DNA from: Nocardioides panacis
GTDB taxonomy: Bacteria > Actinomycetota > Actinomycetes > Propionibacteriales > Nocardioidaceae
DNA length: 64,000 nt
NCBI RefSeq assembly: GCF_019039255.1
Contig: NZ_CP077062.1
Location: 3,162,001-3,226,000, forward strand
Direction of reading: 5' to 3'
In this document: in pieces, positions 54,364-57,242 of the stretch
How positions within the stretch are numbered: position 1 is the stretch's first letter
Layout of the letters: every line of letters begins with the position of its first letter
The notes under the pieces: model-generated
Seen by the model: the letters and a program-made list of their open reading frames with translations, nothing else
Told to the model about the DNA's origin: nothing
Databases searched by the model: none
Program-made: the position numbers and the translations under genes

Positions 54364-55398
54364 TCAGTCCTGGGTCACGCCCGCCCAGAGGTTCACCCCG
54401 GCCTCGACCGCGTCCTGGTCGATCGCGGCCAGCTCGGCGTCGGTGAGCGGCGGACCGTCGAGCGCGTCGAGGTTGGTGTCGAGCTGCTCGACCGAGGAGG
54501 CCCCGATGACCGCGGAGGTGACCCGGCGGTCCCGCAGCGCCCACTGCAGCGCCAGCTGGGCGAGCTTCTGGCCGCGCCCCACGGCGATCTCGTTGAGCCG
54601 TCGGACGTGCTTGAGGGTGGCCTCGTCGAGGTGCCGGTCACCGATCGTGCTGCCCTCGCGGGCGGCACGGGAGTCCGACGGGACCCCGTCGAGGTAGCGG
54701 TCGGTCAGCAGCCCCTGGGCCAGCGCGGTGAACACGATGCAACCCATGCCCTGCTCCTCGAGCTCGTCGAGCAGGCCCTTCTCGATCCAGCGGTTGAGCA
54801 TGGAGTACGACGGCTGGTGGATCAGCAGCGGCGTGCCCAGCTCGCGGGCGATCGACGCGGCCTCCTTCGTCCTGGCTGCGGAGTAGGAGGAGATGCCGGC
54901 GTACAGCGCGCGGCCGGAGCGGACCGCCGTGTCCAGCGCCTGCATGGTCTCCTCGACGGGCGTCTCGGCGTCGAAGCGGTGGCTGTAGAAGATGTCGACG
55001 TACTCCACCCCGATCCGCTTCAGCGACTGGTCGAGGGAGGACAGGACGTACTTCCGGGAGCCGCCGCCCTGGCCGTAGGGCCCCGGCCACATGTCGTATC
55101 CGGCCTTCGTGGAGATCACCAGCTCGTCGCGCAGCCCGGCGAAGTCGGTGGCCAGGAACCGGCCGAAGTTCTCCTCCGCGCGGCCGTAGGGCGGGCCGTA
55201 GTTGTTGGCCAGGTCGAAGTGCGTGACGCCCCGGTCGAACGCACGGCGCAGGATCGCCCGCTGGGTCTCCTCGGGCCGGTCGGTGCCGAAGTTCTGCCAG
55301 AGGCCGAGGGACAGCGCGGGCAGCTTGAGGCCGCTCCGTCCGGTGTAGCGGTAGTCCATCGTGTCGTAGCGGTCGTCGGCCGGCTGGTAGTCGCTCAT
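54364..55398 (-). CDS. Aldo/keto reductase (YghZ/GAP-reductase-like)
   Basis: A 344-residue AKR barrel with the tetrad elements 'FDLANNYGPPYGRAEE' (Asp, Tyr), 'ISTKAGYDMWPGPYG' (Lys) and 'FYSHRFD' (His), and the NADPH-binding end 'VTSAVIGASSVEQLDTN'. The 'MDYRYTGRSGLKLPALSLGLWQNFG' start is that of the YghZ/Kv-beta-like branch, often L-glyceraldehyde-3-phosphate reductase. Start at 55398. It follows the ClpN gene by 35 bases and appears to be the last gene of that operon; link to proteolysis unknown. Confidence 0.9.
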   Translation of the reverse strand: MSDYQPADDRYDTMDYRYTGRSGLKLPALSLGLWQNFGTDRPEETQRAILRRAFDRGVTHFDLANNYGPPYGRAEENFGRFLATDFAGLRDELVISTKAGYDMWPGPYGQGGGSRKYVLSSLDQSLKRIGVEYVDIFYSHRFDAETPVEETMQALDTAVRSGRALYAGISSYSAARTKEAASIARELGTPLLIHQPSYSMLNRWIEKGLLDELEEQGMGCIVFTALAQGLLTDRYLDGVPSDSRAAREGSTIGDRHLDEATLKHVRRLNEIAVGRGQKLAQLALQWALRDRRVTSAVIGASSVEQLDTNLDALDGPPLTDAELAAIDQDAVEAGVNLWAGVTQD

Positions 55399-55433: not shown

Positions 55434-55982
55434 TCAGCCGGTCTGCTCGCCCGCCTGCCGGACCGCGGCGACGACCGCATCGCGCAGCCCCGCCCGCTCG
55501 ATGCCGAAGGCGCCGAGCGTGTCCAGGACGACCCGGTCCCCGCCGCGGACCAGGCCGAGCAGCAGGTGCTCGGTGCCGATGTAGTTGTGCCGCAGGGCGA
55601 TCGCCTCGCGCAGCGCGAGCTCCAGCGCCTTCTTGGACCCGCGCCCGAACCGCGGCGGCCGGCTGGCCGGCAGCGCGCCGCCGAGGTTGCGGTCGATCCG
55701 CCGCACGACCTCGTCCAGGTCGATGCCGATCGCCTGCAGCGCGGCGGCGTCGTCGGCGTCCAGCCCGTCGACGTACTGCATCCGCAGCCGGTCGAGCTCG
55801 GCGCGCAGGTCGGCCGGCGCGGCGCCCAGCCCGGCCAGGACCCGCGTCGCGAGGCACTGCTCGTCGGCCAGCAGCGCGGCGAGCAGGTGCTCGGGGCGCG
55901 TCTCGGCGGCGGTGGCGTCCCGCGCGACGAGCGCCGCCTGCTCCACCACCTGGCGCGCGGGCCGGGTGAACCTCTCGAACAT
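55434..55982 (-). CDS. Stand-alone Clp N-terminal-domain protein
   Basis: 182 residues forming two Clp N repeats without any AAA+ ATPase: first 'QVVEQAALVARDATAAETRPEHLLAALLADEQ' (two segments, about 10-75), second 'LELALREAIALRHNYIGTEHLLLGLVRGGD' (about 115-165). In ClpA/ClpC this domain binds adaptors and substrates, so a free copy could be an adaptor or inhibitor of ClpC. AAGGGG ribosome-binding site before the ATG. It follows the small HTH gene by 15 bases; the pairing recurs in actinobacteria. Domain certain, role inferred. Confidence 0.88.
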   Translation of the reverse strand: MFERFTRPARQVVEQAALVARDATAAETRPEHLLAALLADEQCLATRVLAGLGAAPADLRAELDRLRMQYVDGLDADDAAALQAIGIDLDEVVRRIDRNLGGALPASRPPRFGRGSKKALELALREAIALRHNYIGTEHLLLGLVRGGDRVVLDTLGAFGIERAGLRDAVVAAVRQAGEQTG

Positions 55983-55997
55983 GTCCGTCCCCTTCTC

Positions 55998-56207
55998 TCA
56001 GCGCCGGCCGTGCTTCTTGTGCACGGCCTGGCGGCTCACACCGAGCACGTCGGCGATCTCCTGCCACGACCAGCCCAGCGAGCGGGCCCGGCGCACCTGG
56101 GTCTCCTCCAGGTGCTCGAGCAGCCGTCCCAGCGCCCGCACCGCCCGCAGGCCGGTGCGGGGGTCGGCGTCCGCGGCGGCGGTGGCGAGGTCGTCGGTGC
56201 CGGTCAT
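55998..56207 (-). CDS. Small helix-turn-helix protein upstream of ClpN
   Basis: A 69-residue protein whose C-terminal half, 'SLGWSWQEIADVLGVSRQAVHKKHGRR', is a clear sigma-70-region-4/HTH helix pair; the N-terminal half is a helix ('VRALGRLLEHLEETQVRRA'). The ATG at 56207 lies 7 bases after the -10 box, so the message is leaderless; the TTG three codons earlier is not used. Probably binds the two palindromes over its promoter and autoregulates the HTH-ClpN-reductase operon (inferred). Confidence 0.85.
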   Translation of the reverse strand: MTGTDDLATAAADADPRTGLRAVRALGRLLEHLEETQVRRARSLGWSWQEIADVLGVSRQAVHKKHGRR

Positions 56208-56211
56208 GGCT

Positions 56212-56227
56212 GTCAACCTACGTTGAC
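56212..56227. promoter_or_regulatory. Palindromic operator 1 (overlaps -10)
   Basis: GTCAAC-CTAC-GTTGAC, a perfect 6-4-6 palindrome covering most of the -10 region of the HTH-ClpN promoter. Confidence 0.8.
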
Positions 56228-56244
56228 GTCACGGGTCCTGTCAA
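56215..56244 (-). promoter_or_regulatory. HTH-ClpN operon promoter
   Basis: Minus strand: -35 TTGACA (56244-56239, consensus), 18-base spacer, -10 TAGGTT (56220-56215), then 7 bases to the ATG at 56207. Confidence 0.8.
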
Positions 56245-56255
56245 CGTTGGTTGAC
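56240..56255. promoter_or_regulatory. Palindromic operator 2 (overlaps -35)
   Basis: GTCAAC-GTTG-GTTGAC, centre 28 bases from operator 1, overlapping the -35 of the HTH gene and upstream of the divergent ketopantoate-reductase-like gene. Confidence 0.8.
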
Positions 56256-56273: not shown

Positions 56274-57242
56274 ATGCGATGGATGGTGTACGGCGCCGGG
56301 GCGGTCGGCGGGGTGCTCGGCGGACTGCTGCACGAGGCCGGCCGCGACGTGGTGCTGGTGGCGCGCGGCCCGCACCTCGACGCACTGCGCCGCGACGGGC
56401 TGACCCTGGCGTCCCCCGAGGGCACCCGCTCGATCGACGTACCCGCCGCCGGGGACGCGCGCGAGGCCCTCGGCGCGGACGGACCGGTCACCGTGCTGCT
56501 GGCGGTCAAGAGCCACCAGACGCAGGCCGCCGTCGAGGACCTGACCTCGGTGCTGCCCGCCTCCACCCCGGTGGTGTCGCTGCAGAACGGCGTGGCCAAC
56601 GAGCCGTGGCTGCTGCGGTTCTTCGCCGACGTCCAGGGCGTCTGCGTGATGATGCCGACCGGCCACCTCGAGCCCGGGGTCGTCGAGCAGCACTCGGCGC
56701 CGGTCCCGGGCATCCTCGACGTCGGTCGCTACCCGGGCGGCACGGACGCCACCAGCCGGGCCGTGGCTGCAGCCTTCCGGGACGCCGGGTTCGTCTCGGA
56801 GCCCCGACCGGACGTGATGGCCTGGAAGCACCGCAAGCTGATGATGAACCTCGGCAACGCGGTCCAGGCCTGCTGCGCCCCCGGCCCGGCCGCCGACGAC
56901 CTGGCCGGGCGGGCGGTGGCCGAGGGCGAGGCCGCCCTGGCTGCGGCCGGGATCCCCGTGGTCGGCGTCGCGCAGGACCGCGAGCGCCGCGGCGACCTCC
57001 TCCGGGTCGCCCCGGTCGCCGGTCGCGAGCGCGCCGGCGGGTCGTCCTGGCAGAGCCTGCGGCGCGGCACGGGGAGCATCGAGACCGACTACCTCAACGG
57101 CGAGGTGGTCCGGCTCGGTCGGCTGCACGGCGTGCCCACCCCGGCCAACGCGCTGCTCCAGGCCACCGCCCGGCGGCTGGCCGCCACGGGCGGCGTGCCC
57201 GGCTCGGTCCCGGCCGCGGACCTGCTCGCCCGGCTCGGCTAG
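56274..57242 (+). CDS. Ketopantoate reductase family (PanE/ApbA) protein
   Basis: A 322-residue NADPH-dependent enzyme: Rossmann loop 'YGAGAVGGVLGGLL', 'LLAVKSHQTQAAVEDL', 'VSLQNGVANE' and catalytic Lys in 'AWKHRKLMMNLGNAV'. Would reduce 2-dehydropantoate to pantoate, but several paralogues of this family exist in actinobacteria, so the gene symbol is withheld. Divergent from the HTH-ClpN operon and possibly under the same operators. Its TAG stop overlaps the stop of the convergent methyltransferase gene. Confidence 0.85.
   Translation: MRWMVYGAGAVGGVLGGLLHEAGRDVVLVARGPHLDALRRDGLTLASPEGTRSIDVPAAGDAREALGADGPVTVLLAVKSHQTQAAVEDLTSVLPASTPVVSLQNGVANEPWLLRFFADVQGVCVMMPTGHLEPGVVEQHSAPVPGILDVGRYPGGTDATSRAVAAAFRDAGFVSEPRPDVMAWKHRKLMMNLGNAVQACCAPGPAADDLAGRAVAEGEAALAAAGIPVVGVAQDRERRGDLLRVAPVAGRERAGGSSWQSLRRGTGSIETDYLNGEVVRLGRLHGVPTPANALLQATARRLAATGGVPGSVPAADLLARLG

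Follow-up and report, generated by a model that had tools for sequence, protein, structure and literature searches.

The HTH-ClpN operon of Nocardioides panacis as a probable two-gene form of the ClpC2 autorepression circuit

A small operon in a 64,000-nucleotide stretch of the Nocardioides panacis genome (the whole stretch analyzed, here called the window) raises the question of what a helix-turn-helix (HTH) protein and a Clp N-terminal (ClpN) protein without an ATPase do together behind a promoter covered by twin palindromes. The preliminary description of this DNA knew of no established function for such a module. An established relative exists, however: ClpC2 (Rv2667, and its M. smegmatis homologue), in which an N-terminal dimerizing domain is reported to be fused to a ClpC1-NTD-like domain (PMC10030653). 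We consider it probable that the window operon is the two-gene (split) form of the ClpC2 autorepression and sponge circuit. By title or abstract, we found no report of a split HTH-ClpN operon in the open-license PMC literature.

Operon and promoter in the window

Both genes lie on the minus strand. The HTH gene (55998..56207, ATG at 56207), supported by CDS call, domain search, homology, and a structural model, encodes 69 amino acids and matches HTH_23 in Pfam at 1.2e-5. Its model (mean pLDDT, 92.4) predicts helices at residues 2-11 and 16-43, with the HTH at 48-55 and 59-66. An intergenic gap of 15 nt (55983..55997), in which a Shine-Dalgarno-like GAGAAGGGG was read by eye, separates it from the ClpN-only gene (55434..55982; CDS call and Pfam). 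The 182-residue product is ClpC1-NTD-like and lacks AAA modules: Clp_N (PF02861) occurs twice (E 3.4e-21), and no ATPase family matched as a domain in the Pfam search.

Pattern searching located two exact copies of GTCAAC-N4-GTTGAC upstream of the HTH gene, 28 bp apart from center to center: the proximal operator GTCAACCTACGTTGAC at 56212..56227 and the distal operator GTCAACGTTGGTTGAC at 56240..56255. Reading the minus strand by eye, we placed a -35 element (TTGACA, 56239..56244) at the edge of the distal operator, whose arm carries it, and a -10 element (TAGGTT, 56215..56220) inside the proximal operator, in its spacer, with 18 nt between the two elements. The TA of the -10 element is conserved in position. 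Only 7 nt lie between the -10 element and the ATG, so a transcript from this predicted start would be leaderless. The sequence thus confirms both the operon of an HTH protein and a double Clp_N protein without ATPase and the predicted leaderless promoter overlapped at both elements by palindromes, as the preliminary description had them.

In the 4.9-Mb genome, these two sites are the only exact ones. With up to 3 mismatches allowed, the window holds 5 sites versus 19.3 in shuffles; with up to 2, the genome holds 65 versus 19 for the reversed pattern, and the 50 of these 65 that were listed include no second close pair. Weak sites are no evidence; exactness and pairing carry the weight. The rest of the genome has two 1-mismatch sites, located inside long mechanical open reading frames (ORFs) or right at their end, and because one of them also lies 26 nt before the next ORF, a single weak site is possible there.

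The operon is flanked by a PanE/ApbA-like reductase gene (56274-57242, plus strand), which starts 18 nt from the distal operator, and by an aldo-keto reductase gene (54364-55398, minus strand) 35 nt behind ClpN. As constant members of the arrangement both were rejected: among 142 loci, the divergent PanE-like gene turned up in none but the window's copy, and an aldo-keto reductase in third place was limited to the window and one locus of the same genus (L093). The PADLOC models gave no match. When phage and plasmid copies of ClpN were sought, query P0001 matched none of 50,697 phage records and none of 72,556 plasmid records, and the plasmid search with P0002 returned 6 records, none covering 80%.

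Operator spacing and downstream genes across genomes

We surveyed 393 genomes of the class, their actinomycete label being inferred from named relatives. Exact twin palindromes with a 4-nt spacer (N4) were present in 57 genomes and those with a 5-nt spacer (N5) in 85; the reversed pattern scored 0 in every row of both searches. All 57 twin-N4 loci (58 places, including an overlapping pair in one genome), together with 63 of the 90 twin-N5 places, were then classified with an HTH motif that had been drawn up after the first loci had been viewed. A stand-alone HTH gene lay downstream at 45 of the 57 N4 loci, the window included, and fused ClpC2 at none. Conversely, 56 of the 63 N5 loci had fused ClpC2 and none had a stand-alone HTH gene, the rest comprising one broken fused copy (L247) and 6 others. 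An HTH gene was absent beside the twin N4 sites at 10 of the 57 loci, and at 2 more (L237 and L238) a divergent one was seen by eye.

The HTH ATG followed the operator by 2 to 5 nt at 43 of the 45 N4 loci (36 and 65 nt at the other two), and ClpN was the next gene at 35 of the 45 (34 by phmmer; L180 by Pfam). The TA of the -10 element fell in the proximal spacer at 41/45 N4 loci and 56/56 N5 loci, and in the distal spacer at 1/45 and 9/56, respectively. Nineteen genomes carried both kinds of site; both loci were classified in 11 of them, and in 10 of these 11, N4 went with the split and N5 with the fused arrangement. Across the 393 genomes, one base of operator spacing separates the predicted split circuits from the predicted fused ones.

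Next, we approached the operators from the protein side. HTH matches at E ≤ 1e-6 occurred in 263 of the 393 genomes, a count that includes fused ClpC2 N termini. From these we took 90 HTH loci, made up of the 30 best-scoring matches and 60 picked by hand from the matches listed to spread families and avoid exact-twin loci. The best upstream palindrome had a spacer of 4 and at most 1 mismatch at 79 of the 90 loci (66 of the 77 newly counted), a level reached by 7 of 1,800 shuffles; with up to 2 mismatches, a spacer-4 palindrome was found at 85. ClpN was the next gene at 79 of the 90. The preliminary description had made its case depend on conservation of the palindromes at homologous loci, which is what we found, and the cross-genome comparison strongly supports its proposal of self-repression through twin palindromes. 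The putative split variant of the ClpC2 circuit is widely conserved.

The gene following the HTH was not always ClpN. ABC exporters follow the same HTH gene and N4 operators at L154-L156 and L354 (Pfam was run on L154 only), and a beta-lactamase-fold serine hydrolase (PF00144) does so at L162-L164 (Pfam was run on L162 only). The predicted HTH/operator cassette is therefore not Clp-specific.

Kinship with ClpC2 and the DNA-reading domain

According to its published description, ClpC2 represses its own gene, proposed to be leaderless, at CGTCAAC-n5-GTTGACG over the -35 and -10 elements; cyclomarin releases this repression, and ClpC2 acts as a cyclomarin sponge (PMC10030653). The window shares with ClpC2 a ClpN domain without ATPase, an HTH homologous to the ClpC2 N-terminal domain, operators built from GTCAAC/GTTGAC half-sites, a pair of which covers -35 and -10, a leaderless start as judged by sequence, and the pocket residues F2, F80, and E89. 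It differs in that HTH and ClpN are separate genes and not one polypeptide, in that the operator spacer is 4 and not 5, and in having alanine (A129) at the equivalent of ClpC2 R189. The earlier suggestion that the module titrates the Clp protease would fit the decoy role toward a ClpC1 ligand reported for ClpC2 (PMC10030653).

Alignment of 42 stand-alone HTH proteins against 56 fused N termini by hhalign gave a probability of 98.1 (E 6.4e-14, 56 columns), a score to be read with the caveat that HTH motifs resemble each other. The two HMMs also matched each other's members reciprocally in the four named loci in which one is present, and in a tree of HTH domains, the 56 fused proteins and 118 others fell into two groups without exception (support, 0.795). 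For ClpC2, dimerization-deficient R57A and CTD variants are cited as showing the importance of the dimer for tight DNA binding (PMC10030653). By alignment, the dimer pair D46-R57 maps to E31-R42 in the window protein; across 13 proteins, R42 hardly varies, and 11 of them have an acidic residue at position 31. A Foldseek search of the PDB returned no match at E ≤ 0.001 for either model, and the ClpC2 crystal 8ADA was absent among the best 50 matches listed. In the PDB matches of the window HTH, RelI ranked second with a weak E of 0.024 and 8ADA ninth (E 0.79). Fis-type dimeric proteins with a helix bundle and HTH match weakly, as a common arrangement gives, and we claim no homology with them. 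Judged by these comparisons, the window HTH protein is a stand-alone homologue of the ClpC2 N-terminal domain.

The ClpN protein retains the ligand pocket. ClpC1 residues F2, F80, and E89, named as critical for cyclomarin contact (PMC10030653), correspond to F2, F112, and E121 in the window. Among 35 split ClpN proteins, their equivalents are kept in 29, 30, and 28 and replaced in 6, 5, and 7, respectively; in a larger set, reduced from 113 to 100 split ClpN proteins by removing repeats, they are found in 89, 88, and 76. The distance from F2 to F80 is 78 in ClpC1; its median is 78 for fused proteins and 120.5 for split ones, and it is at least 90 in 98 of 100 split versus 2 of 56 fused proteins. 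Unlike ClpC1 and all but a few of the fused proteins examined, split ClpN proteins, including that of the window, carry an extra segment between the two repeats. This segment often reads GIDLD.VR..VE..FG.GAL (a loose motif is present in 54/100 split and 4/56 fused proteins) and is a candidate for the place where the separate HTH protein docks.

Which of the two domains reads the DNA is less straightforward. Taylor et al. (2023) placed DNA binding in the C-terminal domain (CTD) of ClpC2, whose surface they described as conserved and positively charged: an R185A/R189A mutant gave weaker DNA binding in EMSA, and repression was reduced in the equivalent mutant of M. smegmatis (PMC10030653). The terms "helix-turn-helix" and "HTH" occur 0 times in the main text of that paper; a 2026 paper on RelS-RelI does mention an HTH region in ClpC2 (PMC13284704). 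The published double-arginine mutant argues against the HTH as the reader. This mutant and the presence of arginine at position 189 in 53 of 56 fused proteins favor an alternative in which ClpN reads the DNA or is required as a corepressor and the HTH only dimerizes or assists. On the other hand, R189 is matched by arginine in only 7 of 35 split proteins, and the R185 equivalent (R125 in the window) is generic, being found in 32/35 split and 54/56 fused proteins and also in ClpC1. The extent of the crystals also counts against ClpN as the reader: the 8ADA chain ends at residue 72 (...SMGV), the other ClpC2 crystal, 8AD9, covers residues 94-252 (PMC10030653), and our model of the fused protein puts the last HTH helix at 72-79 (mean pLDDT of 77.5, about 90 over residues 71-80). 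The likeliest DNA-reading helix would therefore be missing from both crystals. Since N4 operators also precede HTH genes that are followed by exporters or hydrolases instead of ClpN, the HTH is probably the DNA reader, and we regard DNA reading by ClpN as quite unlikely.

A proposed circuit, its alternatives, and its reach

The circuit that we favor builds on the observed gene and operator anatomy, the HTH homology, operator conservation seen from both directions, and pocket conservation. The HTH protein would dimerize through its long helix and the E31-R42 pair, and one dimer per GTCAAC-N4-GTTGAC site would cover -35 and -10 and repress its own leaderless mRNA; we rate such autorepression as very likely. 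The second gene would supply a ClpN decoy whose ClpC1-NTD ligand pocket is intact, a sponge role that we consider likely on the strength of homology. On the arrival of a ClpC1 ligand, be it a cyclomarin-like peptide or an unfolded or marked protein, ClpN would bind it, the HTH would leave the operators, and the resulting rise in ClpN would shield ClpC1. Repression, its relief by ligand, and the sponge action are carried over from ClpC2; as for how relief would work, loaded ClpN may contact the HTH, perhaps through the split-specific segment. In M. tuberculosis, a cyclomarin analogue alone was reported to raise ClpC2, and ilamycin and ecumicin bound it without inducing (PMC12913811), so the pocket alone does not predict the inducer. 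Nor need the signal be a ClpC1 ligand at all, given that the same HTH precedes non-Clp genes.

Other readings change the signal or the role of ClpN. ClpN could be a ClpC1P adaptor, a holdase, or a substrate-competing regulator in an operon that answers general protein stress, in line with reports that ClpC2 is mildly heat induced and its proposed role as holdase or substrate competitor (PMC10030653); the genes otherwise found behind these operators, in a small, hand-viewed set, are exporters and hydrolases and not chaperones, and we hold this reading to be rather unlikely. The HTH might instead repress alone and itself be a ClpC1P substrate, the signal being its changed proteolysis as ClpN competes at the ClpC1 receptor site. 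A small unlinked repressor adjoining a mimic of the ClpC1 receptor invites this idea by reasoning only, and it overlaps our preferred explanation in the repression step, but a ClpC1-blocking ligand would then increase the HTH and decrease ClpN, which is opposite to what defense requires unless the ligand activates ClpC1; we judge it improbable. Finally, the M. tuberculosis antitoxin RelI, whose HTH is described as similar to that of ClpC2 (PMC13284704) and which ranked second in the PDB matches above, might suggest a toxin-antitoxin-like pair with a RelI-like HTH that neutralizes its partner. Yet the partner of RelI is a rRNA-cleaving toxin of the RelE superfamily, with no ClpN described (PMC13284704), and that of the window HTH is a Clp_N protein, which makes such a pair extremely improbable.

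The operators may reach further genes. In six genomes (L230-L235, around position 1500; Pfam was run on L230 only), twin N4 sites precede ABC exporter genes that have no adjoining HTH gene. The same six genomes hold an HTH-ClpN operon elsewhere with N4 sites of at most 1 mismatch, which suggests a shared regulon, although other HTH copies in these genomes could regulate the exporters instead. In three genomes, twin N5 sites lie upstream of FAD-binding (PF01494) monooxygenase-like genes (L255:252-1457, L256:1567-2811, and L258:260-1465); none of the three has an adjoining ClpC2, and no NCBIfam model reached its cutoff for these genes among the matches listed. A joint reading, which we put forward only tentatively, would make the split operon a widespread actinomycete response to ClpC1-targeting natural products, with the HTH reading DNA across the ClpC2 superfamily, N4 and N5 insulating paralogous circuits within one genome, and the regulon extending to ABC exporters (N4) and FAD monooxygenases (N5). 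A sponge, a pump, and a modifying enzyme would then answer the same signal. ClpC1 is the target of several antitubercular peptides, and ClpC2 is the known rescue from one of these. The split form indicates which part would read DNA, and the published CTD assignment deserves a retest. The N4/N5 contrast offers a natural comparison for how paralogous repressors stay apart, and the operator signature can find further genes of such a response.

Three further loci stood out during classification. At L247, fused ClpC2 is broken after its N-terminal part and three N5 operators stand in a row; the locus was counted as unclassified. At L190, a methyltransferase-domain gene (662-1498) begins 2 nt after a twin N5 operator. 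At L236, a ClpN-only gene (about 1585-2076) directly follows twin N4 sites, with no HTH gene in between.
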